Source: Acinetobacter calcoaceticus
GTDB taxonomy: Bacteria; Pseudomonadota; Gammaproteobacteria; Pseudomonadales; Moraxellaceae
NCBI RefSeq assembly: GCF_900520355.1
Contig: NZ_LS999521.1
Span: 1,302,001-1,366,000 of the forward strand
Reading direction: 5' to 3'
DNA length: 64,000 bases
The translations under genes were made by a program, and so were the position numbers. Positions 6,977 through 20,963 of the stretch are shown here, in pieces; positions within the stretch are counted from its first letter, which is position 1, and every line of letters starts with the position of its first letter. The notes beneath the pieces are model-generated. The model was given only the letters and a program-made list of their open reading frames with translations. It made no database searches and had not been told where the DNA came from.

Positions 6977-7008
6977 GAGGCAACTTCCTTTATTAATTCA
7001 GCCTTATT

Positions 7009-7662
7009 TCACCAATAAATATAGTTTATGTTTTCACCAGAAATCTGTCTCATAGCAGCGATGAGCAATCTTTCAATTATCTTATCAAGAGCTAGATAAT
7101 TTGGAGGAAAACTCTCTAACGTAATAACATCGGTACTTATTTCCCATAAGTTTTCTTTAACTCTCATACTCTTTTTTATTTGAATAGAATTTGTTTTTTG
7201 TTGAAGTAAATCAATACAATCATTTATTGGAGCTTCTACAAATCCTACTATCTCATTATCTTTCGGCTTGAGCTCGGATAAATCAATATTTAAAGGCAAT
7301 AAAAAGATATGTTGAAATTCATTTGCAATGTAATTTTCTGCTATATGGCAAGCCGTTTGTCGAATTCCAATAGAAATTAATTGATTAAATCTCACATCAA
7401 TTCCTAATTCTTCTTGGCATTCTCTTATGCCATCTTCAATGGTTTCACCTGCCTCGTAATGCCCACCAACAGAGATATCAAGAAAACTTTTTCTGTCGAA
7501 AGTATAGTTATCAGAATTTTTTAGCTGAAAATAAACATATTGAGTTGATGGGTTGTATACAAGGCAAGTAAAAACCCTATGCCATAGTCCCAATTGATGC
7601 GCTAATTTTTTATTAACAACACCCATGTATTCGTAATTATCATTAAATATATCAATATCCAT
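7009..7662 (-). CDS. Nudix hydrolase (Idi/YfcD-like subfamily)
   Basis: Hydrolase of nucleoside-diphosphate-linked compounds. From the chosen ATG the protein has 217 residues and starts MDIDIFNDNYEYMG, the usual opening of this subfamily; an ATG 75 bp upstream (7737) would add a hydrophobic stretch unlike the family and has no clear ribosome-binding site. The Nudix box lies in GGHYEAGE...RECQEELGI. It has six instead of seven residues between the first Glu and the Arg-Glu pair of the canonical GX5EX7REUXEEXGU pattern; the catalytic glutamates are present. It is the first gene of the Nudix-kinase-GNAT cassette and is divergent from the racemase gene. Confidence 0.8.
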   Translation of the reverse strand: MDIDIFNDNYEYMGVVNKKLAHQLGLWHRVFTCLVYNPSTQYVYFQLKNSDNYTFDRKSFLDISVGGHYEAGETIEDGIRECQEELGIDVRFNQLISIGIRQTACHIAENYIANEFQHIFLLPLNIDLSELKPKDNEIVGFVEAPINDCIDLLQQKTNSIQIKKSMRVKENLWEISTDVITLESFPPNYLALDKIIERLLIAAMRQISGENINYIYW

Positions 7663-7805
7663 GTTATTTTTTAATCGACTATAAAGTTTAAGAACATATT
7701 TTATGTGGTTTATAAGATAGAAATTAAAAGAAAGCAATTTTATTCTAGCTGCGCTTTACTCATAAGAGATATAGATAACTTTTGAATAAATAGAAGGATT
7801 CAATA

Positions 7806-8549
7806 ATGAAAACAATTGGTTTATTAGGTGGAATGAGTTGGGAATCTACAGCGCTTTATTATCAACAAATTAATAAAATGGTTCACGGTAAATTAGGAAA
7901 ATTGCACTCTGCTAAGGTCATTATTAATAGTGTGGATTTTGAAGAAATCGCAGCCTTACAAGCGAAGGGTTTATGGCAAGAAGCTGGCGCATATTTAGCT
8001 GAGCAAGCACAAAATTTAGAAAAAGCAGGGGCAGAGTGTATTTTGGTGTGTACGAACACCATGCATAAAATTGCATCGCAGATTGAGGATGCTATTACGG
8101 TTCCTTTCTTACACATCGCTGATGCGACAGCAAAAGAAATTGTGAGTCAAAACATTGGTAAAGTCGCACTGTTGGGAACAGCTTTTACAATGGAGCAAGA
8201 TTTTTATAAGGCTCGACTACAGGAGCATGGAATTGACGTGATGATTCCAAATGAAGCCGACCGAAAGATAGTACATCGTATTATTTATGAAGAACTTTGT
8301 TTAGGTGTAATAAACCCAGATTCAAGGCAAAAATACGAGACTATTGTAGAGGCGCTTATAGCTGAAGGCGCAGAAGGAATTATCTTGGGTTGTACCGAAA
8401 TTTGTATGTTGATTGGTGAGCTTAAATTCTCGGTTCCTTTATTTGATACGACTGCCATTCATGCAAAAGAGGCGGTGAGTTTTAGCTTAAATGAAAATAA
8501 AAACTCTAATGGTACCAATCTACGCATGACTGCTGGGAGTATTCTTTAG
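7806..8549 (+). CDS. Aspartate/glutamate racemase family protein
   Basis: A cofactor-independent two-cysteine racemase of 247 residues. The N-terminus MKTIGLLGGMSWESTALYY is diagnostic for the YgeA/aspartate racemase group. The catalytic cysteines are C82 (VCTNTMH) and C196 (LGCTEIC), at the expected spacing. The likely reaction is interconversion of L- and D-Asp or Glu in the cytoplasm. The gene is divergent from the Nudix gene and is followed by 136 bp holding a regulatory element for the next operon. The last 20 or so residues are less conserved. Confidence 0.88.
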   Translation: MKTIGLLGGMSWESTALYYQQINKMVHGKLGKLHSAKVIINSVDFEEIAALQAKGLWQEAGAYLAEQAQNLEKAGAECILVCTNTMHKIASQIEDAITVPFLHIADATAKEIVSQNIGKVALLGTAFTMEQDFYKARLQEHGIDVMIPNEADRKIVHRIIYEELCLGVINPDSRQKYETIVEALIAEGAEGIILGCTEICMLIGELKFSVPLFDTTAIHAKEAVSFSLNENKNSNGTNLRMTAGSIL

Positions 8550-8587
8550 CAATATTTCAAATATCCTTTGTCATTAATCGTTAAGCC

Positions 8588-8607
8588 TGTGTCGTCAAAT
8601 GTAAAGT
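8588..8607 (+). promoter_or_regulatory. Candidate AraC-type regulator binding site, copy 1
   Basis: The 20 bases beginning TGTGTCGTCAAATG match positions 16401-16420 at 19 of 20 bases. The element ends 78 nt before the start codon of the quinone oxidoreductase gene; the other copy ends 81 nt before the hydrolase start. Same orientation, similar distance and closeness to an AraC-family gene suggest an activator site. Binding by that regulator is inference. Confidence 0.6.
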
Positions 8608-8685
8608 GGCACATATCCTACTTATTGTAGTTTGAGTTATTGCTGTTATAGGCACTTAATAAAAAACCAAAATATGGGATAGGAC

Positions 8686-9672
8686 ATGACGTTGACGAAA
8701 GCTATACGTTTCTATGGAACAGGAACGCCTGAAGTAATGCGCTATGAAGATGTAGAAGTAGGAGACCCAAAAGCTGGAGAAGTACGCCTACGCCATGTGG
8801 CAGTCGGTTTAAATTATGCCGATACATATTTTCGTAATGGAACATATAAAATTCCAATGCCTAATGGCATGGGTGTCGAGGCTTCTGGTGTTGTCGAAGC
8901 TTTAGGTGAAGGGGTCACTCAGCTTAAAGTGGGTGATCGGGTCACTTATACAGGTTTTTTAAATACTTTAGGTGCATATAGCACCAACCGTCTAATTTCA
9001 GCAGATGCGCTGATTAAATTACCCGAAGAAATTTCTTGTGAAACAGCGGCAGCCATGACCATGAGAGGGTTGACCGCTGCTTATCTAATGCGCCGTATTT
9101 ATAACTTTAAAGCTGGCGATTCAATTTTATTGCATGCAGCTGCAGGCGGTGTTGGGTTGATTGTTTCTCAATGGGCTAAATTACTTGGCTTAACAGTTAT
9201 CGGTACCACATCTTCTGAAGAAAAAGCTGCCGTAGCACGAGCTCATGGTTGTGATCATGTCATTAATTATAGCCATGAAAATGTTGCTGAACGTGTACGC
9301 GAGCTAACTGGTGGCGTTGGTGTAAATGTCGTTTTCGATAGTGTCGGTCAAGCCACTTTCATGAGTTCATTAGATTCTCTAAAACGCCGTGGTTTATTAG
9401 TCTGTGTAGGCACTGCATCTGGTCCAATTCCTGCTTTTGATCCGGTATTACTTGCCATAAAAGGTTCACTGTTTGTAACGCGTCCAGCTTTAGCAGATTA
9501 CATTGCAGATCCTGCCGAGAAAAAAGAACTGGCCAATGAATTATTCGATCATGTTCGACATGGACGAATCAAAATTGAAATTAATCAGCGCTATGAGCTA
9601 AAGGATGCCGTGCAAGCTCATCGTGATTTAGAAGCACGTAAAACAATAGGTTCATCAATTTTTGTAATTTGA
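8686..9672 (+). CDS. NADPH:quinone oxidoreductase-like zinc-less MDR protein
   Basis: A 328-residue medium-chain dehydrogenase/reductase of the QOR branch. It has the GroES-like N-domain (VGLNYADTYFRNG) and a Rossmann fold with AAAGGVGLIVSQWAK around residues 146-160. The catalytic zinc cysteines of alcohol dehydrogenases are absent, as in quinone or enone reductases. It is probably the first gene of the seven-gene catabolic operon and would reduce a quinone- or enone-type intermediate with NADPH. The next gene begins 11 bp after its stop. Confidence 0.88.
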   Translation: MTLTKAIRFYGTGTPEVMRYEDVEVGDPKAGEVRLRHVAVGLNYADTYFRNGTYKIPMPNGMGVEASGVVEALGEGVTQLKVGDRVTYTGFLNTLGAYSTNRLISADALIKLPEEISCETAAAMTMRGLTAAYLMRRIYNFKAGDSILLHAAAGGVGLIVSQWAKLLGLTVIGTTSSEEKAAVARAHGCDHVINYSHENVAERVRELTGGVGVNVVFDSVGQATFMSSLDSLKRRGLLVCVGTASGPIPAFDPVLLAIKGSLFVTRPALADYIADPAEKKELANELFDHVRHGRIKIEINQRYELKDAVQAHRDLEARKTIGSSIFVI

Positions 9673-9683
9673 AGGGATTTCTT

Positions 9684-10532
9684 ATGCAAATTGAACAGCT
9701 AACTTGCAATATTGGTGCAGAGTTAAGTGGTATAAAACTGTCTGATGCAATTTACGACGATGGTTTATTTTCTGAAATTCGTACCCAACTGCTTAAACAT
9801 CGTGTTTTGTTTTTACGAGATCAACATTTAACCCGTCAGGATCATGTCGCATTTGCAGAAAAATTCGGGCAATTAGAAGCTCATCCAGCGGTCAGGAGCC
9901 ATCCTGATCATCCTGGTTTATTGCAGATTTATAAAAGCCCCGAAAGTCCAGTTGATCGTTATGAAAATTCTTGGCATAGCGATGCAAGCTGGCGCAAGGC
10001 CCCACCTATGGGATGTGTGCTGCATTGTGTTGAATGTCCATCTGTAGGTGGCGATACAATGTGGACAAATATGGTCATGGCCTATGAGTTTTTACCTGAA
10101 GATATTAAGGATAAGATTGCAGACTTACGTGCGTACCACAGCATAGAAGCGAGTTTTGGCGCTGCGTTGCCACTTGAGAAGCGTTTGGAATTAAAAGAAA
10201 AGTTCCCCGATGCAGAGCATCCAGTGGTACGTACTCATCCTGAAACGGGCGAGAAAATTTTATACGTCAACGCGTTTACCACCCATTTCAGTAACTATCA
10301 CACCAAAGAGCGAGTCAGATTTGGACAAGATGCCAATCCGGGCGCAGCTGAACTACTACGTTACTTAATTTCTCAAGCCTATATTCCAGAGTTTCAAGTA
10401 CGCTGGCGTTGGAAGCCTAACAGTATTGCAATTTGGGATAACCGCAGTACACAACACTATGCCGTGATGGACTATCCGCCATGTCATCGAAAAATGGAAC
10501 GGGCCGGCATTATTGGTGACGCAACCTATTAA
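9684..10532 (+). CDS. TauD/TfdA-family 2-oxoglutarate/Fe(II)-dependent dioxygenase
   Basis: Non-haem iron oxygenase of 282 residues, near the length of E. coli TauD. The iron ligands are H98 and D100 (SWHSDASW) and H258 (TQHYA), with a C-terminal arginine (HRKMER) for 2-oxoglutarate or substrate; EFQVRWRWKPNSIAIWDNR is strongly TauD-like. The ATG at 9684 is chosen over an upstream TTG because GAAGGGA stands 6 bp before it. TauD enzymes hydroxylate sulfonates, releasing sulfite and an aldehyde; others cleave aryloxy acids. By recalled alignment a tyrosine that contacts taurine in E. coli TauD is valine here, so another substrate is likely. Second gene of the operon. Confidence 0.9.
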   Translation: MQIEQLTCNIGAELSGIKLSDAIYDDGLFSEIRTQLLKHRVLFLRDQHLTRQDHVAFAEKFGQLEAHPAVRSHPDHPGLLQIYKSPESPVDRYENSWHSDASWRKAPPMGCVLHCVECPSVGGDTMWTNMVMAYEFLPEDIKDKIADLRAYHSIEASFGAALPLEKRLELKEKFPDAEHPVVRTHPETGEKILYVNAFTTHFSNYHTKERVRFGQDANPGAAELLRYLISQAYIPEFQVRWRWKPNSIAIWDNRSTQHYAVMDYPPCHRKMERAGIIGDATY

Positions 10533-10592
10533 ATCTACAGATTAAAAAATTCTATCTGATTGAAAATTCATAAAATATATAAGGAGATGCAC

Positions 10593-11645
10593 ATGCAATT
10601 CTTTGACGATTCTTTGCACCCAGAAAATATGGAAAAAGTGGTAATCACGGTTGCGCCGTATGGACCGGAATGGATGCCTGAAGACTTTCCCGAAGATATT
10701 CCTGTGACCATGGATGAGCAAATACAAAAAGCGGTCGAGTGTTATGAAGCGGGTGCTACGGTGCTGCATTTACATGTCCGTGAGCTTGATGGCAAAGGCT
10801 CTAAACGTCTCTCAAAATTTAATGAACTCATCGCAGGTGTTCGTGAAGCTGTGCCTGACATGATTATTCAGGTGGGTGGTTCGATTTCATTTGCACCAGA
10901 GAGTGAAGGTGAGGCGGCACTATGGCTAAGTGATGACACTCGACATATGTTAGCCGAACTTACACCAAAACCTGATCAGGTCACGGTAGCTATTAACACC
11001 ACCCAAATGAATATTATGGAATTGCTCTATCCTGAATATTTAGAAGGGACTTCATTGGCACATCCAGCGACTCAGGCAGCCTATGCTGAGATGACCGTGC
11101 CAGCTGGTCCAGCATGGGTAACTGAACATATTAAGCGCTTGTGTAAAAACAATATTCAACCACACTTTCAGTTAACGGGAATGCATGGTCTTGAAACCCT
11201 AGAACGTATGGTGCGTAAAGGGTTGTATATGGGGCCGTTAAACTTAACTTGGATTGGAATTGGTGGTGGTTTTGATGGTCCAAACCCATTTAATTTCTTT
11301 AATTTTATTCATCGCGTACCTGATGGGTGTACTTTGACATCCGAATCTCTGCTCAAAAATGTATTACCTTTTAACACCATGTCGATGGCAATGGGGTTAC
11401 ATGCTCGTGTAGGTAACGAAGATACGATTATTGATCATCACGGACGCCGTTTTTCCTCTGTAGAGCAAATTAAGCAAACCGTTCGGATTGCCCATGAATT
11501 AGGTCGTGAAATTGCATCAGGAAAAGAAGCTCGTGAAATTTACCGCATTGGGGTGCAATACAACAGTATCGAAGAAACCCTAATCGCAAATGGTATGGCA
11601 CCCAACCGTAAAGCAGGGCACAAAGGCGTTCCTCAGCGTAACTAA
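10593..11645 (+). CDS. Beta-keto acid cleavage enzyme (BKACE / Kce-like, DUF849)
   Basis: A 350-residue TIM-barrel zinc enzyme. BKACE proteins condense a beta-keto acid with acetyl-CoA to give acetoacetate and a new acyl-CoA; 3-keto-5-aminohexanoate in lysine fermentation is one known substrate. Visible are the metal-binding H59-x-H61 (VLHLHVREL), QVGGSISF, and the GLHARVGNEDTI block near the C-terminus. The ATG at 10593 has AAGGAG 6 bp upstream; longer starts would place the ribosome-binding site inside the coding region. The N-terminal substrate pocket (VAPYGPEW) differs from classic Kce, so the substrate is open. Confidence 0.87.
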   Translation: MQFFDDSLHPENMEKVVITVAPYGPEWMPEDFPEDIPVTMDEQIQKAVECYEAGATVLHLHVRELDGKGSKRLSKFNELIAGVREAVPDMIIQVGGSISFAPESEGEAALWLSDDTRHMLAELTPKPDQVTVAINTTQMNIMELLYPEYLEGTSLAHPATQAAYAEMTVPAGPAWVTEHIKRLCKNNIQPHFQLTGMHGLETLERMVRKGLYMGPLNLTWIGIGGGFDGPNPFNFFNFIHRVPDGCTLTSESLLKNVLPFNTMSMAMGLHARVGNEDTIIDHHGRRFSSVEQIKQTVRIAHELGREIASGKEAREIYRIGVQYNSIEETLIANGMAPNRKAGHKGVPQRN

Positions 11646-11651
11646 TGTAAC

Positions 11652-11725
11652 AAGGTCTAATGGAATTTAGACCTTAATTGTAGTGCAGCTTATTTGCTTT
11701 GAGTTTAAAGATGTAATGCTGCACT
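11652..11725. repeat. Two inverted repeats between the BKACE and MFS genes
   Basis: A perfect 9-bp stem (AAGGTCTAA, 11652-11660, with TTAGACCTT, 11667-11675) starts 7 bp after the BKACE stop but lacks a T-run. A second pair, AGTGCAGC (11682-11689) and GCTGCACT (11718-11725), is separated by 28 bp. They could be an mRNA processing or stability structure, a partial terminator or an operator. The MFS gene behind them has its own strong AAGGAGG site. Confidence 0.5.
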
Positions 11726-11762
11726 CGCTCAATAGAAATTATAAAAAATACAAGGAGGTCTT

Positions 11763-13112
11763 ATGAATGCGCATCAGTATTCAGATCAGATGAGCGATGT
11801 TGATACGTCAATCAGTATACCTCGTCGTTATGCATGGCTTGTTTTTGCTTTAACTTTTGGTTTACTCATTTCAGATTACATGTCACGGCAAGTATTAAAC
11901 GCAGTCTTTCCGTTGCTCAAAACTGAATGGTTACTCAGTGACAGCCAGCTAGGTTTGCTCAGTGGCATTGTCGCCTTAATGGTAGGTTTATTGACTCTGC
12001 CGTTATCTTTATTAGCAGACCGTTTTGGACGAGTTAAAAGCTTGGCCATTATGGCGGCATTATGGAGTTTAGCGACTTTAGGGTGTGCACTTGCTGAAAA
12101 CTATGAGCAAATGTTTATTGCTCGTTTTATGGTTGGTGTAGGTGAGGCGGCCTATGGCAGTGTTGGTATTGCAGTGGTTGTAGCTGTTTTTCCAAGGGAA
12201 ATGCGTGCAACACTTGCTAGTGCTTTTATGGCTGGCGGTGTATTCGGTTCATTTTTGGGTATGGCCTTAGGTGGTGTTCTCGCTCAGCACTTTGGCTGGC
12301 GTTGGGCTTTTGGCGCTATTGCTTTATTTGGCCTCATTTTGGCTTTTCTATATCCAGTTCTAGTCAAAGAAAAAAGAATAGCTTCTTCACATCAAAATAA
12401 GAATCGTAGCAAAACCAAGCACATTCAAAGTCCTTTAAAAACTTTATATTCAAGTCGTTCAGTCATTGCCACTTACATTGGTAGTGGGTTGCAACTATTT
12501 GTTGGTGGCACGGTGATTGTCTGGATGCCGAGTTATCTCAATCGCTATTACGGCATGAGTACTGACAAAGCAGGTGTAATGGCAGCAGTGATTGTACTCT
12601 GTAGTGCTGTAGGTACAATTCTATGCGGTATGTTATGTGATTATTTGGGCCGTAATTGTCCTGATCGTAAGGTTAGTTTAGCCATTACATACTGCTTGGT
12701 CAGTTGTGTGCTTTTATTAATTGCTTTTGCTGTGCCTGCGGGGCGCAGCCAGTTACTTCTAATTTGCCTTGGAATGTTTATTGCCCTAGGAACCAATGGT
12801 CCATCCAGTGCCATGGTAGCCAATCTCACACATAACTCAGTTCATGGCTCTGCGTTTGCAACGCTCACCTTAGCTAATAATTTTCTGGGTTTAGCGCTTG
12901 GTCCTTTGGTCGTTGGCAAAGTATCTGATGTGATCGGTTTACACAGCGCATTTCAGCTGATGCCATTGGTCAGTATTGCAGCCGCTGCCGTATTTTTTTA
13001 TGCCAAACGCCATTATCACAAAGATATTGCACGCTTTGAACAGCAAGGAATGACTGAACTTAAAAATCATTCAGATAACCAAATACAAAAATGTAGGATG
13101 AATAATAAATGA
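11763..13112 (+). CDS. MFS transporter, organic-acid/aromatic-acid type
   Basis: A 449-residue inner-membrane carrier with twelve predicted helices. The cytoplasmic loop 2-3 signature is LADRFGRVKS, and there is a long basic central loop after helix 6. The sequence suggests the anion:cation or sugar-phosphate-type subgroup; the substrate is presumably the compound degraded by the operon. A strong ribosome-binding site (AAGGAGG) stands 4 bp before the ATG. Its stop overlaps the next start (ATGA), so the downstream gene is translationally coupled. Confidence 0.88.
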   Translation: MNAHQYSDQMSDVDTSISIPRRYAWLVFALTFGLLISDYMSRQVLNAVFPLLKTEWLLSDSQLGLLSGIVALMVGLLTLPLSLLADRFGRVKSLAIMAALWSLATLGCALAENYEQMFIARFMVGVGEAAYGSVGIAVVVAVFPREMRATLASAFMAGGVFGSFLGMALGGVLAQHFGWRWAFGAIALFGLILAFLYPVLVKEKRIASSHQNKNRSKTKHIQSPLKTLYSSRSVIATYIGSGLQLFVGGTVIVWMPSYLNRYYGMSTDKAGVMAAVIVLCSAVGTILCGMLCDYLGRNCPDRKVSLAITYCLVSCVLLLIAFAVPAGRSQLLLICLGMFIALGTNGPSSAMVANLTHNSVHGSAFATLTLANNFLGLALGPLVVGKVSDVIGLHSAFQLMPLVSIAAAAVFFYAKRHYHKDIARFEQQGMTELKNHSDNQIQKCRMNNK

Positions 13113-13765
13113 TGATTCGGCAATTACACATTGATGTATTTTTTGACTTTATTTGTCCTTGGTGTTTGATCGGAAAACGTCAGTTACTGATCGCTATAAA
13201 TAGATTTTATCAGCTTCACCCTAGCGTCAAAGTTGTCGTGCATTGGCGAGGTGTTCAGCTCATACCAGACTTGGCAGTTGAAGGAGTGCCTTTTCAAACA
13301 TTCTATTTGAAAAGATTAGGTAGCTTGACAGCAGTTCACATGAGACAGGAACAAGTCAATAAAGCCGCAAATAAGGTTGGCCTCAAAATCGATTTTGAAC
13401 AGATTAAACGCATGCCAAACACGGCTAAGGCTCATCGCTTATTTGATAAAGCTTTAAAGATCGGTACTCCTGAGCAGTGCAATATGCTGTTAGAACAGCT
13501 CTTTGCTGCATATTTTTATGATGGCTTAGACATTGGAAATACCACCACTTTATACAAAATCGCGAAACGTTGTGGCTTCCCACCTGAGCTAATCAAAAAT
13601 TTACTTATTCAAGATCATCAAGATTTTATCTCTGCAAGTACAGGAGGTAATGGTGTGCCTTACTTTATTTTTGATCGGGCCTCTGCATTAGTTGGAGCGC
13701 AATCAGCAGATGCACTTTATCAAGCGATGCACGAGGCACTTGTTGTTCAGGGAGAATTAATGTGA
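13109..13765 (+). CDS. DsbA-family (FrnE/HCCA isomerase-like) oxidoreductase
   Basis: A 218-residue cytoplasmic thioredoxin-fold protein with no signal peptide. The redox motif CPWC is at residues 16-19 (FDFICPWCLIG), and the C-terminal NGVPYFIFDR is the cis-proline region. FrnE-like proteins of this type are linked to polyketide or aromatic metabolism, and the related 2-hydroxychromene-2-carboxylate isomerases use glutathione. Here it may be a glutathione-dependent isomerase or a thiol oxidoreductase of the pathway. Start and stop both overlap its neighbours by 4 bp. Confidence 0.85.
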   Translation: MMIRQLHIDVFFDFICPWCLIGKRQLLIAINRFYQLHPSVKVVVHWRGVQLIPDLAVEGVPFQTFYLKRLGSLTAVHMRQEQVNKAANKVGLKIDFEQIKRMPNTAKAHRLFDKALKIGTPEQCNMLLEQLFAAYFYDGLDIGNTTTLYKIAKRCGFPPELIKNLLIQDHQDFISASTGGNGVPYFIFDRASALVGAQSADALYQAMHEALVVQGELM

Positions 13766-14088
13766 CTACTCGATTTGAAGTACCTCTAGACAAAATACCG
13801 AATTCAGGCGAACGGGCTTTTTTTAAAGTCGGAGATAAAACTCTTGCGCTATTTAATATTGCGACTCAATTTTATGCAATCGATGACAGTTGTCCTCATC
13901 AGGGCGCATCGCTATTTAGCGGACGTTTAGAAGGACGAGTAATTCAGTGCTGTGCCCATGGTCTACGCTTTGATTTAACAAATGGCTGTTTAGTTAATTC
14001 TTCTCAGCTCAAAGTTGCAACCTATCCCGTAGAAGTGATTGAGGAAAAAGTATTTATTGTGATGGGTTCTGGGGAAAATCATGGCTAG
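13762..14088 (+). CDS. Rieske [2Fe-2S] ferredoxin-type protein
   Basis: A 108-residue protein consisting of one Rieske domain. Cluster ligands are C44 and H46 (SCPHQG) and C63 and H66 (CCAHG). The start is GTG, overlapping the stop of the DsbA-like gene by 4 bp. Such small proteins carry electrons to ring-hydroxylating or other oxygenases, but no terminal Rieske oxygenase subunit is present nearby, so its partner is unclear. The TauD-type enzyme does not need one in its classic mechanism. Confidence 0.88.
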   Translation: MTTRFEVPLDKIPNSGERAFFKVGDKTLALFNIATQFYAIDDSCPHQGASLFSGRLEGRVIQCCAHGLRFDLTNGCLVNSSQLKVATYPVEVIEEKVFIVMGSGENHG

Positions 14089-15091
14089 CTTAGTTTTGAA
14101 AAATTTTACCCAGCGCACACGAGAATTAGCACCGGGTTTTGTGGTCAGTTCAGTCGTTGCTGCGGCTGCCTGTTTTTTATCTGAGCACTATGGTGCCCCA
14201 GTCATGTTATTTGCCTTACTGCTAGGTATGAGTCTAAATTTTTTAGCAGCCGAAAGTAAATGTAAGGCAGGTATTGAATTCACCGCACGTACTGTGCTTC
14301 GAATGGGTATTGCCTTACTCGGCATGCGTATAACTTTAGGACAAATCACTGCACTAGGGTGGCAGCCTGTAGCCTTAGTCATAACTCTGGTTATTGTAAC
14401 AATCGCCGTTTCAGTGATTGCTGCTAAAATTTTAGGTTTCCAAAGACTATTTGGTATGTTGACCGGTGGATCAACCGCAATTTGTGGTGCTTCAGCTGCG
14501 CTAGCATTGTCAGCTGCCTTTCCAAATCATCCCCAAAAAGAAAAAGCGACCTTGTTTACTGTCATTGGGGTCTCTGCACTTTCAACATTAGCAATGATTG
14601 TCTATCCAATGATTGCGAAGTGGTTAGAGCTATCGCCACAAGCTGCGGGTGTCTTTCTCGGAGCTACCATTCATGATGTAGCGCAAGTGGTGGGAGCAGG
14701 TTATAGCATGTCTACCGAAACAGGTGATACTGCGACTGTAGTTAAACTGATGCGTGTAGCAATGTTACTTCCAGTGATTGTTTGTGCGGCAATGATTACC
14801 CGCATGCAAGGTGCAGATACAATGGGGGAGCGTCCACCATTACTGCCTTGGTTTGCAGTTGGCTTTTTAATACTGGCTTGTATTAACAGTACAGGGTGGG
14901 TACCAGTAATGATTCAAAATGGAATAAACGATTTATCACGCTGGTTTTTAGTCATCGCAATTAGTGCTTTGGGTATGAAAACTCAGTTGAAAGAATTGGC
15001 ATCTGTCGGGATTAAACCAATTCTTCTCATGGTCGGTGAAAGCATATTTTTAGTGGTATTAGTTTTAGCCTTAATGCACTTTTGGTTTTAA
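14081..15091 (+). CDS. YeiH/TauZ-type putative sulfate or sulfite exporter (UPF0324)
   Basis: A 336-residue membrane protein with about ten helices. Family motifs include LLGMSLNFLA, GIALLGMRI, GGSTAICGASAA and GATIHDVAQVVGAG. Members of this family are annotated as sulfate/sulfite exporters and occur in desulfonation gene clusters such as those for taurine. The gene overlaps the Rieske gene by 8 bp and ends the operon. Its presence beside a TauD-type oxygenase is the main argument that the pathway releases sulfite. Confidence 0.88.
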   Translation: MASLVLKNFTQRTRELAPGFVVSSVVAAAACFLSEHYGAPVMLFALLLGMSLNFLAAESKCKAGIEFTARTVLRMGIALLGMRITLGQITALGWQPVALVITLVIVTIAVSVIAAKILGFQRLFGMLTGGSTAICGASAALALSAAFPNHPQKEKATLFTVIGVSALSTLAMIVYPMIAKWLELSPQAAGVFLGATIHDVAQVVGAGYSMSTETGDTATVVKLMRVAMLLPVIVCAAMITRMQGADTMGERPPLLPWFAVGFLILACINSTGWVPVMIQNGINDLSRWFLVIAISALGMKTQLKELASVGIKPILLMVGESIFLVVLVLALMHFWF

Positions 15092-15199
15092 GTTAATTTT
15101 AAATCTTTAGAGGAGGTTCTGGGTTATTCACAAAACTTCTTCTTTTATTTAAAGCTGTTTTGAATCAATTCATCTTCTTTACTCTAAATACACCCGTGT

Positions 15200-16210
15200 T
15201 TAATTCAGTAGCGATTTGTTATGACTACGCCACATATTCGGTGACATCCCAAATTGATTAATGAACCAACGCGTAAAAGAGCTCGGCATCGAATAACCTA
15301 AAATATCAGACACTTGAGCGAGTGAATAATTTAGATTTTTTAAATAGCGCAATACGAGGTCTTTACGTACTTCATTGATTAAATCACTAAAACTCGTCTG
15401 TGCTTCTTCTAAGCGACGCTGTAAGGTCCGGACATGAAGACCATGTGTTTGAGCGACTTGATCAATCGTAGCGCGACCCATTGGTAAAAGAAGATAAATA
15501 CTTTTACGAATATCAAAAATCATGGTTGATTCATTACTATTCTGTAAAATATCTAAATAACGCTGTGCATGGTTGGCCATAGCCAGATTTGCTTGAGGAT
15601 TTGTTGTATCAAGTTCGGCCGCGGTACAAACAATACCATTAAAGTCACTTCCAAATTCTAAGGCACAGCCAAAAATCCGCCGATGGAGGGTTAAATCGCT
15701 TGGTGGATTATGGGTGAAGTGAACACTTAATGGTCGCCATTTTTGCATCAGTAACGCTGCACAAAAACGATGGGTAATTCCTAAAGCAAGTTCAGTGGCT
15801 TGACGACTATATCCGCAAGTTGTAGTCACGACTTCTTCTCGAATAACCACCGTATCATCGACTTCCTCAATATAAATCTCAAGTGAGTTATTGAGTAAAT
15901 TCCTATAACGAACAATCGTTTGTAAGGCATCTCGTAAAGTGTGCTGATAATTTAACAAAAGGCTAATTTCACCAAAATCTGCAATTTCGCGTTGCTCTGC
16001 CATATGTAAACCGAAAACATCGCAGCTACTCATTTGGGCTGAGTCTTCAAGCAAGGTAATGGCTTTATCTACAGGAATGCGTTGTTTAAGATCATTTAAT
16101 TGAGTTTGACTAAGCCCAACACGTGATAATAAATGGTAGGGGTTTAGATCTAATTGTTGAGCAACTGCCAAATAATTTTTTAAAGAGGCCGTATGCGCAA
16201 GAGGTACCAT
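15200..16210 (-). CDS. AraC-family transcriptional regulator
   Basis: A 336-residue regulator with an N-terminal ligand-binding domain of the Arabinose_bd (OruR-like) type (about 20-200) and a C-terminal pair of helix-turn-helix motifs (GRATIDQVAQTHGLHVRTLQRRL and the segment with LAQVSDILGYSMPSSFTRWF). It lies 108 bp after the convergent operon and is divergent from the hydrolase gene. The 20-bp element at 16401-16420 in its upstream region recurs before the operon, so it is the likely activator of both. The inducer is unknown. Confidence 0.9.
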   Translation of the reverse strand: MVPLAHTASLKNYLAVAQQLDLNPYHLLSRVGLSQTQLNDLKQRIPVDKAITLLEDSAQMSSCDVFGLHMAEQREIADFGEISLLLNYQHTLRDALQTIVRYRNLLNNSLEIYIEEVDDTVVIREEVVTTTCGYSRQATELALGITHRFCAALLMQKWRPLSVHFTHNPPSDLTLHRRIFGCALEFGSDFNGIVCTAAELDTTNPQANLAMANHAQRYLDILQNSNESTMIFDIRKSIYLLLPMGRATIDQVAQTHGLHVRTLQRRLEEAQTSFSDLINEVRKDLVLRYLKNLNYSLAQVSDILGYSMPSSFTRWFINQFGMSPNMWRSHNKSLLN

Positions 16211-16400
16211 TTTATTATCTCCTTGTTCTTAATCAGCCATATTCCTTACAGCTCATATCTAGTTATAACCAAAATATACACATTACAAAAGCTTTTATTT
16301 AAGAGCTTAATTGTTAAGTACGCTTAATTTGAAACTTCTTCTCTTAAGTTAATTGTAATTACAAAAATTATTTTAATGAATTTAAGAAATTTTAAAAAGA

Positions 16401-16420
16401 TGTGTCGTCAAATGAAAAGT
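16401..16420 (+). promoter_or_regulatory. Candidate AraC-type regulator binding site, copy 2
   Basis: Starts TGTGTCGTCAAATG and differs from 8588-8607 at a single base (A for T at position 15). It lies between the AraC gene and the hydrolase gene, ending 81 nt before the latter's start, and could serve autoregulation as well as activation. The rest of the 291-bp intergenic region is AT-rich with no gene visible. Confidence 0.6.
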
Positions 16421-16501
16421 CCGTGACGCCTTATGTACACCATTAACTGAAATGAGCCTTTATTGTGAATGGAGTTTTATAAAAATTCTTGTGCATCCTA
16501 G

Positions 16502-17107
16502 ATGGCAAAGTTCACAGGCGTCAAAATGGAAAAAATACAAACCAGAGCAACGATTTTAATTATTCCGGGGTTACGCGACCACGTTCCCGAGCATTGGCAA
16601 ACGATCTTAGAAACAAGACTAGCGAAGGTTCGCTCCGTACCACCTGTACAAACCAATAAACTCAATTGTGAAAATAGAGTTGCTGCCATACAAGTACAGC
16701 TCGAACAAATACAAGGTCCTGTCATTTTAGTTGCCCACAGCGCGGGTGTTCTGATGACTATACACTGGGCTGCCAAACATCAAAGACCAATTCAAGGTGC
16801 TCTACTTGTTACCCCACCTGACTTAAACGAAAGTTGGCCTGCAAATTATCCGAGCCCAGTCGTACTTCATCAAGAAGGATGGAACCCTTTACCTCATCAA
16901 AAGTTACCTTTCCCTAGCATTTTGGTTGCAAGCACCAATGACCATTTAGCTCGCTATGAAGCTGTAAGTGATATGGCAGAAAAATGGGGTAGTCAACTCG
17001 TAAATTTAGGTGCGGTGGGACATTTGAACCCTGCATCAGGCTTTGGTTATTGGCCCTTAGCTGAGCAATTTATTCAACAGTTAGATCAGGGGGAACAACC
17101 TGCGTAG
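16502..17107 (+). CDS. RBBP9/YdeN-family serine alpha/beta hydrolase
   Basis: A 201-residue hydrolase of the DUF1234/RBBP9 group. It has the entry motif IPGLRDHVPEHWQ, nucleophile S80 in VAHSAG, a likely acid in ASTNDHLARYE and the histidine in GAVGHLNPASGFG. The usual family beginning corresponds to the ATG at 16526 (MEKIQ), so the first eight residues may not be translated; neither start has a strong ribosome-binding site. It is preceded by the 20-bp element shared with the 8.7 kb operon, so it may hydrolyse an ester or thioester of that pathway. Confidence 0.82.
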   Translation: MAKFTGVKMEKIQTRATILIIPGLRDHVPEHWQTILETRLAKVRSVPPVQTNKLNCENRVAAIQVQLEQIQGPVILVAHSAGVLMTIHWAAKHQRPIQGALLVTPPDLNESWPANYPSPVVLHQEGWNPLPHQKLPFPSILVASTNDHLARYEAVSDMAEKWGSQLVNLGAVGHLNPASGFGYWPLAEQFIQQLDQGEQPA

Positions 17108-17207
17108 TACGAAAAAAATACCTGCTTATGTAAACCATTTAAAAGCCAATGGATGGCTTTGAGTAATAAGCAATAAATAAGAACAATCATATTTACAGGG
17201 AGATAAT

Positions 17208-19040
17208 ATGATGAGGCATTACGTATATTTAAATCAAACAAACCAACATATTTTATATATTCAAAAAATAGGTGTTTCATTAAGTCTGATTTTATTCATG
17301 TCTAAAGCAAATGCAGCTAGTTTTGATGTTGATAAAGACTGGAAGTTCGATACAAAAACGACATTAAGCCTTGGTGCCAGTTGGAGTACACAAGATCCAT
17401 CCGTTTCATTACTTTATCGGCCTGACGCTAATAAAATAGGTAAGCAAGGTTCTAGCATTGATGTGAATGGTGATGATGGGCGCATGAATTTTAGTAAATA
17501 TGATGCCATCTCACAGATCATTAGAGGCATAACTGAAGTCAAATTAAATGGAAAACAGCAGGGTGCGGTCATCAGTACTAAATACTGGTATGACCATGCC
17601 TATGAGACAGGAGAAGGAGACTTTAAACCCTTTAATGATTCAGCGTGGCCAAGGCTCGCAAAGTTCAAAGGAATTGATTTATGGAATGCCTATATATGGA
17701 AAGATTTTGAACTTAACAATGGACGAACTATAAACTTAAAACTGGGTAAACAGACTTTAAGTTGGGGGAAATCTCAGTTTTTCCAAAACGGTTTAAATTC
17801 GGTGAGTGCATTCGATTTTGCTGCAATCAACCGACCAGCTGGTGATGCAAAAGAAAGAATCATTCCAACCGGAATGTTCTCATTTGATACAAGCATTAAT
17901 AAAAATTTGAAAATAGAAGGATTCTATCAATTTAAATTTAGGCCTTCAGTTGTTGATGGCAGCGGGACTTTCTTTGAGATTTCAGACTTTGTTCCCGAAA
18001 ACGCGGGACCAGTTCTGATTGCTGGAGGGGGTGATAAGTTATCTGATACGGCAGTGCGTTTAGGTAGTTATATTCCACGTGCAGAAAGTAGAAAAGCAAA
18101 GGACAATGGCCAATATGGTATTGCTTTAAAACAGACATTACCAAGTTTAAATAATGCTGAGTTAGGTATTTACTATGCGAATTATCATAGCCGTAATGCA
18201 AACTTTGATGGAACGGCAGTAACAGCGCGGGGGCCAGAGCATTTTAATACCGCAAGTTATTTTTCTATCTATCCTGAAAATATAAAAATGTTTGGATTAA
18301 GTCTGACTGGGAAAGTTGGCACCACAACAGTTTTCAGTGAATTAGCACACAAGCCCAATCAACCTTTGCAATTAAACGGTACCGACATTGTGTATGCTCA
18401 AGTGTTATCGGATGGCACACCATTTTCCCCTCCAGGGGAAACTGTTGAATTAGGCCAATATATTCAAGGATATGTACGTTTACCTGTAACACAATTTTCG
18501 GTCGGAGCAACTGACAGCATATTTAATATTTTGGGCGCAAATTCGATGACATGGTCTACAGAGTTTGCCTTAAATCATATCGCAGATATTGGTAATCATC
18601 GAATAGGTCGGACAGGTGCATTTGGCCGTAGTGAGCTTTCAACAGGTGCTTATAATCCCGAAACAGGCGACTTTAAATGTACGCCGTATGGTACAGCTCA
18701 TCTTACAAATGCAGAAATTGACAACTTAAATGAACGTTTTTGTAATAAAAATGGATTTTTTAATGAATGGTCATTTGGTTACCGATTACGTGGCGCATTA
18801 AGCTATCAAGATATTTTACCTTCTACAGTTATTACTCCAAGTCTTAGTTTTAGACATGACGTTCATGGATATAGCCAAAACTTTCAAGAAGGTCAAATGA
18901 GTGTAAGTGCCGCGTTATCTATGACTTACCAACAAAAATATACAACAGAGATTGCCTATAATAACTTTTTTGGTTCTAATGAATTTAGCACCATAGATGA
19001 TCGAGATTTTATATCTTTAACATTTAGAGCTAATTTTTAG
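17208..19040 (+). CDS. DUF1302 family outer-membrane protein
   Basis: A 610-residue protein with an N-terminal export signal (hydrophobic IGVSLSLILFMSKANA, cleavage near ANA at about residue 36), many alternating beta-strand segments and a terminal phenylalanine (LTFRANF), as in beta-barrel outer-membrane proteins. DUF1302 members occur in clusters for uptake or catabolism of hydrophobic compounds, usually next to a DUF1329 gene; no DUF1329 gene is here. A good ribosome-binding site (AGGGAGA) precedes ATGATG. It may be the outer-membrane channel for the substrate of the neighbouring catabolic genes. Confidence 0.82.
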   Translation: MMRHYVYLNQTNQHILYIQKIGVSLSLILFMSKANAASFDVDKDWKFDTKTTLSLGASWSTQDPSVSLLYRPDANKIGKQGSSIDVNGDDGRMNFSKYDAISQIIRGITEVKLNGKQQGAVISTKYWYDHAYETGEGDFKPFNDSAWPRLAKFKGIDLWNAYIWKDFELNNGRTINLKLGKQTLSWGKSQFFQNGLNSVSAFDFAAINRPAGDAKERIIPTGMFSFDTSINKNLKIEGFYQFKFRPSVVDGSGTFFEISDFVPENAGPVLIAGGGDKLSDTAVRLGSYIPRAESRKAKDNGQYGIALKQTLPSLNNAELGIYYANYHSRNANFDGTAVTARGPEHFNTASYFSIYPENIKMFGLSLTGKVGTTTVFSELAHKPNQPLQLNGTDIVYAQVLSDGTPFSPPGETVELGQYIQGYVRLPVTQFSVGATDSIFNILGANSMTWSTEFALNHIADIGNHRIGRTGAFGRSELSTGAYNPETGDFKCTPYGTAHLTNAEIDNLNERFCNKNGFFNEWSFGYRLRGALSYQDILPSTVITPSLSFRHDVHGYSQNFQEGQMSVSAALSMTYQQKYTTEIAYNNFFGSNEFSTIDDRDFISLTFRANF

Positions 19041-19108
19041 TTTAATTGTTTTCTTAAAAATTATAGAAAGCCCCTTTATAAATGAGATTTTAGAATGGAG
19101 AATAACTT

Positions 19109-19519
19109 TTGAAATTTAGATCAAAAATTGATTGGTGGCTTTTATTAATATTTATTGTTACTACTGCCATCATTGTTATGAAAATTTATGAAGCAAATCA
19201 TAATTATTCTTTAGCTTCAAATTTTCCGCATCTCATTATTTATAGTTTAATTATTTTTGTCATTTGGCTTCCAATTTTTAACACTTATTACGTAGTAGAA
19301 AACGACACCTTAATTATTAAGAGCTTGGTATTCCGATGGAAAATTAATATTAATGATATTACTCAAATAGAACCTACTCATAATCCACTTTCATCTCCAG
19401 CGCTCTCATTAGATCGACTCAAAATTTATTATATGAAAAATGGAGAAGTCGCATCAGTGATGATTTCTCCGAAAGATAAAGAAGGTTTTTTTCAAGCGAT
19501 AAACAAAAGACCCAATTAA
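19109..19519 (+). CDS. Small membrane protein with PH-like domain
   Basis: A 136-residue protein starting at TTG with ATGGAG 8 bp upstream. Two hydrophobic helices (about 9-25 and 43-60) are followed by a short beta-rich domain (YYVVENDTLIIKSLVFRWKI) of bacterial PH type. Function unknown. Its AT-rich composition differs from the flanking DUF1302 and PQQ-type genes. Confidence 0.65.
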   Translation: MKFRSKIDWWLLLIFIVTTAIIVMKIYEANHNYSLASNFPHLIIYSLIIFVIWLPIFNTYYVVENDTLIIKSLVFRWKININDITQIEPTHNPLSSPALSLDRLKIYYMKNGEVASVMISPKDKEGFFQAINKRPN

Positions 19520-19589
19520 AGTTTCTTGTTTAATTACCTATATCAATTACGCTATTTCCATGACGACAAAAAATAAATGGAGATAACCC

Positions 19590-20963
19590 ATGCCTACACG
19601 TTTTTTACTGCCAATTTTTGGCACTACGGTTTTAATTATATTAGCTGGATGTGCTTCATCCTCTCAATATTCTATTAACGAGAGCTATGGGCCTGAACCA
19701 AAATTGCCTGAGCCTAAATCAAGTTTATTTCCAACCGTGAATATAGCACCAGCAGAAGGCTGGCCGAGTGGTGTTATGCCAACGCCTGCAGAAGGTCTGA
19801 AGGTAAAAGCATTTGTACAAGGGCTTGAACACCCGCGTTGGCTTTATGTGTTACCAAATGGTGATATATTGGTGGCTGAAACAGATGCTCCGTCTAAACC
19901 AGAAGATGGTAAAGGGATTAAGGGTAAAATTATGACTTTCGTGATGAGACGTGCAGGATCATCTCATCCGAGTGCTAACCGTATTAGTTTACTTCGTGAC
20001 ACCAATGGAGACGGAGTAGCTGATCAAAAAACCGTATTTCTCAAAGATTTGAATTCCCCATTTGGTATGGCACTGGTAGGTAATAACCTGTATGTCGCCA
20101 ATACCGATTCACTTATGCGTTTTCCTTATCAAGAGGGCGAAACTCAAATTACAGCAAGTGGAACTAAAGTATTGGACTTACCGGGCGGTCCTTTAAATCA
20201 CCACTGGACCAAAAATGTGATCGCTAACCCAGCAGGTACAAAGCTTTATATTACCGTCGGTTCTAACAGTAATGTTGCTGAAAATGGTATGGAAAAAGAA
20301 AAAGGTCGAGCACAAATTATGGAGTTTGATATTGCAAGTGGTCAGTCACGTCCATTTGCAACGGGACTGCGTAATCCAAATGGTATGGCTTGGCAACCTC
20401 AAAGCGGAAAACTCTGGACGGTTGTTAATGAGCGTGATGAAATTGGCAGTGATTTAGTCCCTGACTATATGACGTCAGTTCAAGATGGTGCTTTTTATGG
20501 CTGGCCTTATAGCTACTATGGTCAACATGTAGATATACGAGTAAAACCACAAAATCCTGAAATGGTTGCGCGTGCAATTAAACCTGATTATGCACTAGGT
20601 AACCATACTGCTTCTTTAGGCCTTACATTTTACGCAGCCGAACTCATGCCACAATTTCGTGGTGGTGCATTGATTGGTCAGCATGGTTCATGGAACCGTA
20701 AACCGCATAGTGGTTATAAGGTAGTGTATGTGCCATTTAGAAGTGGTCAACCATCTGGGCCGCCTCAAGATATTTTGACTGGATTCCTCAGTGATAAAGG
20801 TAAAGCTTATGGGCGTCCTGTAGGTGTAGCAATAGATTTTTCTGGGGCAGTGTTAGTCGCAGATGATGTGGGCAATACTATTTGGCGAGTTTCGCCAGTT
20901 GCAGAGACGACTTATGAGAGTCCAACCAAACAGCCAGTTAACAGCTCATTAGCTCAACCTTAA
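19590..20963 (+). CDS. PQQ-dependent sugar (sorbosone-type) dehydrogenase, lipoprotein
   Basis: A 457-residue beta-propeller enzyme of the soluble aldose/L-sorbosone dehydrogenase family. The lipobox is ILAGC (cysteine at about residue 21), so it is probably tethered in the periplasm. Family landmarks are [27 protein letters not shown]-like and [10 protein letters not shown] segments, [14 protein letters not shown] and [19 protein letters not shown]. It would oxidise an aldose or another aldehyde or alcohol using pyrroloquinoline quinone; cofactor and substrate are inferred from family. An inverted TGTCGTCA-like core stands about 22 bp before its start. Confidence 0.87.

Follow-up and report, generated by a model that had tools for sequence, protein, structure and literature searches.

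Which compound is processed by an operon that joins a TauD-type dioxygenase to an enzyme with the fold of the beta-keto acid cleavage enzymes (BKACE) and to a YeiH-type membrane protein? The question is raised by a stretch of 64,000 nucleotides from Acinetobacter calcoaceticus (contig NZ_LS999521.1, positions 1,302,001 to 1,366,000 of the forward strand; in the following simply the window, in whose numbering positions are given), which belongs to a complete chromosome of 3.93 Mb. On one strand it carries genes for a quinone oxidoreductase (QOR), a TauD-type dioxygenase, a DUF849 enzyme, a major facilitator superfamily (MFS) carrier, a DsbA-like protein, a Rieske ferredoxin and a YeiH-type protein (Table 1). 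The original prediction had read these seven genes as a candidate organosulfur pathway in which sulfite is released and exported. The gene families and the common strand were borne out by the open reading frames and by Pfam, where all seven proteins lie above the family cut-offs, and the overlaps measure exactly 4, 4 and 8 bp, as described. As a unit the seven genes hold, but the extent does not, since a limit at 15091 omits an AraC-type regulator, an alpha/beta hydrolase and a DUF1302 protein.

Our preferred answer, to which we give somewhat better than even credence, is an inducible module that breaks down a small organic anion other than taurine, is linked to the AraC regulator and ends in acetoacetate. 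Judged from its genes, the pathway probably serves catabolism and yields acetoacetate as its end product. The earlier pathway reading thus stood in part: the genes belong together, as a conserved set and a shared promoter word indicate, and a catabolic role is probable, whereas a core of sulfite release and export is not supported. No description of the cluster was found in the literature, most subscription papers lying outside the search, and the module is apparently uncharacterised. If our answer is true, the cluster would widen the range of carbon sources used by common bacteria, and the labels ‘taurine dioxygenase’, ‘3-keto-5-aminohexanoate cleavage’ and even ‘transposase’ would be corrected for many proteins. 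The DUF849 enzyme with its changed active site would then be worth testing, and the operator-like word would offer a ready inducer screen.

Conservation of the gene set and of its promoter word

Neighbouring genes were counted by tblastn around the DUF849 gene, because a simple gene caller overlooks genes in high-GC loci; tblastn itself overlooked the YeiH gene of one Rhodococcus locus (L107). The loci comprised 80 from Gammaproteobacteria (25 Acinetobacter and 55 Pseudomonas, the best 80 of 425 confirmed relatives), 40 from Burkholderiaceae, chosen from DUF849 matches in a Burkholderiaceae-type family, 14 of 24 plasmid matches and a phylum sample of 17. Within the best 80 of 425, the closest named loci come from Acinetobacter nosocomialis, seifertii, calcoaceticus and lactucae. 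When the same gene order was looked for in other genomes, it was present in 80/80 of these named loci, the seven genes being intact in order and strand in 25/25 Acinetobacter and 55/55 Pseudomonas loci. As these loci are close kin and not independent samples, the conserved order shows stability among kin. The 369,738 bp lying more than 5 kb upstream of DUF849 in the same 80 loci held no match to nine cluster genes at the thresholds of the script. An AraC gene lies nearby on the opposite strand in 25/25 Acinetobacter and 48/55 Pseudomonas loci, and the hydrolase gene is found within 9 kb in 25/25 and 41/55, some Pseudomonas loci ending sooner.

Further away, the set persists in looser form. Around DUF849 in the 40 Burkholderiaceae loci we found QOR in 33, TauD in 35, the MFS carrier in 33, the hydrolase in 30 and AraC in 24; the corresponding numbers for the 14 plasmid loci were 10, 11, 11, 10 and 10. 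The genes stay together, often in broken order, in Novosphingobium, Rhodococcus, Azoarcus, Caballeronia, Streptomyces and Tsukamurella, and the cluster occurs in two phyla. Because the set is kept while its order is reshuffled, one shared pathway is suggested, and this constitutes the main evidence. At an E-value of 1e-90 the DUF849 gene was detected in 18/397 phylum-wide genomes and 40/175 genomes of the genus (both figures include the genome of the window), as well as in 95/249 genomes of the Burkholderiaceae-type family. Long DUF849 proteins also form another large clade (P0241-P0360), about 46-51% identical and mostly metagenomic in origin.

Motif search returned 18-bp words before QOR and before the hydrolase that are closely alike in Acinetobacter and Pseudomonas, with TGTCRT..AATG.AAAGY as the joint word of both genera. 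Both window sites match the pattern TGTCRTNAAATGNMAAGY exactly. In several other loci a spacing of about 20 bp separates the best 18-mer in front of QOR from the best 22-mer, and a first scan of the two promoter regions for direct repeats gave none. In the whole chromosome the pattern occurs three times exactly and 36 times with two mismatches; a reversed control pattern gave 22 in all, with the mismatches unspecified. For scoring, a matrix was built from Pseudomonas QOR promoters only, and real sites were excluded from the control segments. Of the held-out hydrolase promoters, 24/25 from Acinetobacter scored above every one of 1000 control segments, while all 43 from Pseudomonas were above the 99.9% point (minimum 21.9 vs 19.8) and 11/43 above the maximum of 2200 controls; the scored loci are related and do not represent independent trials. 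Sites of at least 16 bits numbered 202 in the 80 loci, with 184 of them before QOR or the hydrolase. Others precede a second TauD-DUF849 pair (L058, L061, L082) or DUF1302 (L033, L064). QOR is also preceded by related words in several Burkholderiaceae loci and in Novosphingobium, where 12/54 were above the 99% point of controls partly drawn over real sites. Both promoters are probably regulated by the AraC protein.

The second TauD-DUF849 pair just mentioned lies before QOR in three Pseudomonas loci (L058:5713-7666, L061:5888-7834, L082:5869-7816). Its two proteins show 71-72% and 62-63% identity, and an operator-like site is located 116-164 bp before each pair.

The dioxygenase and the DUF849 enzyme

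Residues of the dioxygenase were counted over 146 distinct sequences and compared with those of E. coli TauD (Fe, 2-oxoglutarate, His70/Arg270 for the sulfonate, Tyr73/Asp94/Asn95 for the amine side). The cluster enzyme resembles TauD of the tauABCD system in its Pfam family, in the Fe(II) facial triad (H98 and D100 in 146/146, H258 in 145/146 with one gap), in the 2-oxoglutarate residues (R269 in 145/146, T125 in 146/146) and in the anion-binding pair (H67 in 146/146, R273 in 145/146 with one gap). It differs in the absence of an adjoining ABC transporter, no tauABC being among the genes around it, and in the position of Tyr73, which is Ala in 104, Val in 38, Thr in 2 and Leu in 2 sequences, so that the taurine-side tyrosine is not kept. 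The position of Asn95 is taken by Arg or by Glu, according to how the gap is placed, that of Asp94 is ambiguous, and the amine-side set is not reproduced. Glu94, Asn95, His201 and Asn204 of the cluster enzyme are also invariant, and His206 is nearly so.

The same chromosome contains a separate and complete tauABCD, of which TauA and TauC pass the NCBIfam cut-offs and TauB gives the best match below its cut-off. The cluster enzyme is 35% identical to this resident TauD and reaches 244.3 bits against the NCBIfam model NF007104 (cut-off 313), compared to 478.2 bits for the resident protein. Taken together, the separate tauABCD, the lost taurine-side residue and the sub-cut-off score make taurine an unlikely substrate, and as a candidate it was rejected on account of the resident system. 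Among solved structures, PDB entry 5vn6 gave 510 bits over 281 residues; it is of the same subfamily and was deposited under the name taurine dioxygenase. E. coli TauD gave 190 bits and the RdpA and TfdA chains 80-141 bits. An AlphaFold model of the cluster enzyme had a predicted local distance difference test score of 64.6 and was not used.

The DUF849 protein lies above the PF05853 cut-off and has the TIM-barrel fold. Over 159 distinct sequences, the zinc ligands H59, H61 and E276 as well as R272 are kept in 159/159 and D277 in 158/159. The active site is altered in the catalytic strand, where the canonical FECYD has become FQLTG. Position 193, corresponding to Glu143 of Kce, is Gln in 153/159 sequences, including that of the window. 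Position 195 corresponds to Tyr145 of Kce; 128 of the 159 sequences, among them that of the window, have Thr there and 12 have Tyr, which is kept, for instance, by a relative in L113. Tyr145 is the catalytic tyrosine, equivalent to Tyr173 of the Paracoccus enzyme (PMC12871164). Of the NCBIfam BKACE models returned, the cluster protein reaches the cut-off of none. With the catalytic Tyr replaced by Thr and the neighbouring Glu by Gln, the BKACE step becomes doubtful in detail. The enzyme that was proposed to process a keto acid as a BKACE thus retains the fold, zinc ligands and Arg/Asp pair, but not the canonical Tyr and Glu. The BKACE reaction converts a beta-keto acid and acetyl-CoA into an acyl-CoA and acetoacetate; an acetoacetate-forming step is plausible here from the neighbouring genes, and the DUF849 gene does not prove it.

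Deviating members of the family are known. A published grouping of DUF849 proteins includes groups without BKACE activity (PMC4922564), and the flavophos enzyme BsfD, also a DUF849 protein, has lost the canonical Tyr and follows a chemistry that differs from BKACE (PMC12871164). The likeness to BsfD lies in the missing tyrosine; the difference is that BsfD has Phe and makes a phosphonate, whereas the cluster enzyme has Thr in a presumed catabolic setting. Relative to BKACE/Kce and to the triacetate lyase of the phloroglucinol pathway (PMC10470551), the cluster enzyme shows 31% identity in a structural alignment, an extra insertion and the FQLTG strand.

In some variant clusters (L113:10001-14446, L147, L157) the long DUF849 gene stands beside a short-chain dehydrogenase/reductase (SDR) gene and a second DUF849 gene. 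In L113 this second gene scores 547 bits with the triacetate-lyase model NF053538, above the cut-off of 430, and its relatives in L147 and L157, 85-86% identical, likewise adjoin the long form. A second DUF849 gene was not found in the chromosome of the window, where PF05853 has a single match. We regard a phloroglucinol/triacetate pathway as a lead.

The proposed pathway and its rivals

We infer regulator binding, transport direction, the order of steps and every substrate and product as follows. The AraC protein would bind the copies of the operator-like pattern at the two promoters and switch on the seven genes from QOR to YeiH, together with the hydrolase-DUF1302 unit. The substrate would enter through the outer-membrane channel and then by the MFS carrier. 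With O2 and 2-oxoglutarate, TauD would add a hydroxyl to the carbon adjoining an anionic group or a heteroatom group, and QOR would use NADPH to reduce an intermediate that is quinone-like or has a conjugated carbonyl. C-C or ester bonds would be opened by the DUF849 enzyme and the hydrolase to give acetoacetate and an acyl-CoA, and the acetoacetate would be reactivated by a coenzyme A (CoA) transferase or ligase. Only tentatively do we extend this to an aerobic pathway of Pseudomonadota and Actinomycetota in which TauD breaks a non-sulfur carbon-heteroatom bond, the DUF849 enzyme, lacking Glu and Tyr, carries out a new acetoacetate-forming or retro-Claisen step, and one AraC operator code applies.

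Several neighbours are relevant to the acetoacetate end of the scheme. A CoA-transferase pair lies beside the cluster in 6/25 Acinetobacter and 4/55 Pseudomonas loci (family confirmed for L011), and an acetoacetate-CoA ligase gene directly follows the Streptomyces cluster. Uptake genes (MFS, porin, TonB receptor and tripartite tricarboxylate transporter receptor) and acyl-CoA ligases adjoin many clusters. In three Pseudomonas loci (L058:14616-16409, L061, L068; family confirmed for L058) a gene for a PhaC-type polymerase stands between YeiH and the CoA-transferase pair, as if acetoacetate were turned into a storage polymer. Propionyl-CoA was considered as a product because prpB-prpC-acnD-prpF follow the cluster in Caballeronia grimmiae (L109:6038-11998); a 97%-identical prpB recurred only in L174 among 40 Burkholderiaceae loci, so the linkage probably marks one lineage and this reading was dropped. 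The oxidative deoxyribonate pathway of Pseudomonas simiae differs in using an SDR dehydrogenase, and the part of the source available names neither TauD nor QOR among its genes (PMC6365646).

Some observations weigh against the catabolic module. The loss of the catalytic tyrosine from the DUF849 enzyme is one of them. CoA-transferase genes adjoin 10/80 gammaproteobacterial loci only, and four PF01144 pairs lie elsewhere in the chromosome of the window; the transferase thus need not be local, and the acetoacetate link is suggestive only. Six relatives (L113, L116, L117, L126, L131, L134) had no nearby TauD, QOR or hydrolase by tblastn and carry a carboxymuconolactone-decarboxylase-like gene in the vicinity. 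Regarding the promoters, two window sites are not unusual if two mismatches are allowed (17/100 shuffles), and the argument for an operator depends on the exactness and the conservation of the two. With the Pseudomonas matrix, the Acinetobacter QOR promoters were weak, 7/25 being above the control maximum. Finally, the third exact copy in the chromosome lies between another AraC gene with an Arabinose_bd domain and a divergent gene for a desaturase-reductase fusion (L212:5856-9223); the word is therefore not unique to the AraC of the cluster, and related regulators share it.

The sulfur question turns on YeiH. The protein reaches 240 bits for PF03601 (cut-off 24.5) and 165.7 bits for TIGR00698 (cut-off 232.6), and it is the single PF03601 protein found in the chromosome. 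Catabolism of a sulfonate or sulfate ester, with TauD freeing sulfite or sulfate and YeiH exporting it, gains from the retained His/Arg anion pair (H67 and R273) and from the place of YeiH as last operon gene in 25/25 Acinetobacter and 55/55 Pseudomonas loci; it also occurs in Novosphingobium and Rhodococcus clusters. A corresponding Arg also serves carboxylate-binding relatives, however, and the chromosome has its real tauABCD elsewhere. Moreover, tblastn detected YeiH in 6/17 loci of the phylum sample, in 1/14 plasmid loci (2/14 with L107 of Rhodococcus, 236 bits in Pfam) and in 0/40 Burkholderiaceae loci. In 20 of these Burkholderiaceae genomes neither PF03601 (YeiH) nor PF01925 (TauE) was present within 40 kb on the same contig, some contigs ending sooner; each of these genomes has both families elsewhere, the nearest about 44 kb from the cluster. 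Sulfite exporters are thus missing nearby in many clusters. Sulfite release by TauD in all lineages should have left an exporter beside the cluster more frequently. The sulfur reading is therefore weak and its release-and-export core is not upheld; we consider the reading improbable, although sulfur chemistry may occur in some lineages. An anionic substrate of another kind fits better, and the original prediction had itself named a different heteroatom or aromatic substrate as possible.

An aryl ether or related aromatic acid could instead be cleaved oxidatively, as by TfdA and RdpA, with QOR handling a quinone side product. The PDB matches to these chains, the usual adjacency of QOR to TauD, a Rieske ferredoxin that scores best against those of aromatic dioxygenases, albeit below cut-off, and the carboxymuconolactone-decarboxylase-like genes of some clusters are consistent with this. 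E. coli TauD nevertheless scores above RdpA, and the annotated plasmid stretches name no ring-hydroxylating or ring-cleaving oxygenase, although a glyoxalase/dioxygenase-superfamily gene follows DUF849 in L116; we judge the reading unlikely. By analogy with gamma-butyrobetaine, carnitine and 3-keto-5-aminohexanoate, the substrate might be cationic or carry an amino group. Glu14 of Kce binds the substrate amine (PMC10470551), and the aligned residue is Glu in 145/159 distinct DUF849 sequences; Glu26 and Thr195 occur together in 116/137 distinct sequences with TauD within 5 kb, and Glu94 of TauD (146/146) lies near the taurine-amine position. The alignment at TauD 91-95 is gapped and ambiguous, though, Kce and the cluster enzyme differ at further active-site residues, the sequences are mostly close kin and the annotated plasmid stretches name no gene for betaine or carnitine, which leaves an amino substrate with a small probability. 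Equally small is the probability that a toxic compound from plants or microbes is detoxified or modified rather than used for growth, with MFS and YeiH as exporters: universal-stress-protein genes beside some clusters and an MFS carrier that may act in either direction would suit it, while the CoA-transferase, acetoacetate-CoA ligase, acyl-CoA ligase and porin genes nearby suit carbon recovery.

Coordinates and further observations

Table 1. Features of the cluster in the window, with the basis of each assignment.
Feature	Position	Strand	Basis and remarks
Operator-like copy, weaker, TGTCATTAATCGTTAAGC	8569..8586	+	21 bp 5' of the strong copy; read directly in the sequence
Operator-like site TGTCGTCAAATGTAAAGT before QOR	8590..8607	+	Exact pattern match
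QOR, MDR-type quinone oxidoreductase	8686..9672	+	Pfam; NF008024 357 bits vs cut-off 348
TauD/TfdA-type Fe(II)/2-oxoglutarate dioxygenase	9684..10532	+	Pfam; probably not a taurine enzyme
Long-form DUF849/BKACE-fold enzyme, altered active site (FQLTG for FECYD)	10593..11645	+	Pfam, alignment
MFS carrier	11763..13112	+	Pfam; putative organic-anion substrate
FrnE/DsbA-like protein, CPWC motif	13109..13765	+	Pfam; FrnE 58 bits
Rieske [2Fe-2S] ferredoxin, GTG start	13762..14088	+	Pfam, NCBIfam
YeiH/PF03601 membrane protein	14081..15091	+	Pfam; absent from some lineages of the cluster
AraC-type regulator, Arabinose_bd domain	15200..16210	-	Pfam; probably controls the two promoters
Operator-like site TGTCGTCAAATGAAAAGT between AraC and hydrolase genes	16403..16420	+	Exact pattern match
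Alpha/beta hydrolase, Ser_hydrolase family PF06821	16502..17107	+	Pfam
DUF1302 protein (PF06980), possible second gene of the hydrolase unit	17208..19040	+	Pfam 466 bits

For TauD the ATG at 9684 is a more likely start than the TTG at 9669, and for DUF849 the ATG at 10593 is more likely than the TTG at 10560; both are preceded by a ribosome-binding-like sequence, as read by eye. The hydrolase presumably resembles human RBBP9, and the DUF1302 protein is what we take to be the outer-membrane channel. The DUF1302 gene is linked in 25/25 Acinetobacter loci; the case for its membership is weaker than that for the hydrolase. In one locus (L133:5831-7276) the gene adjoining TauD encodes an alpha/beta hydrolase domain fused to a ChrR-type cupin.

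A scan of window positions 7000-20000 against Rfam gave nothing at the gathering threshold, and a promoter and terminator scan was uninformative (promoter-like 12 vs 21.8 in shuffles, terminator-like 9 vs 7.4). An aspartate/glutamate-racemase-like gene lies just 5' of QOR (7806-8549, + strand); it was called in 5/80 loci and is probably outside the module. Two stem-loops without a T run were detected between the DUF849 and MFS genes (11640-11763; -28.3 kcal/mol, z -2.05), a possible processing or attenuation point.

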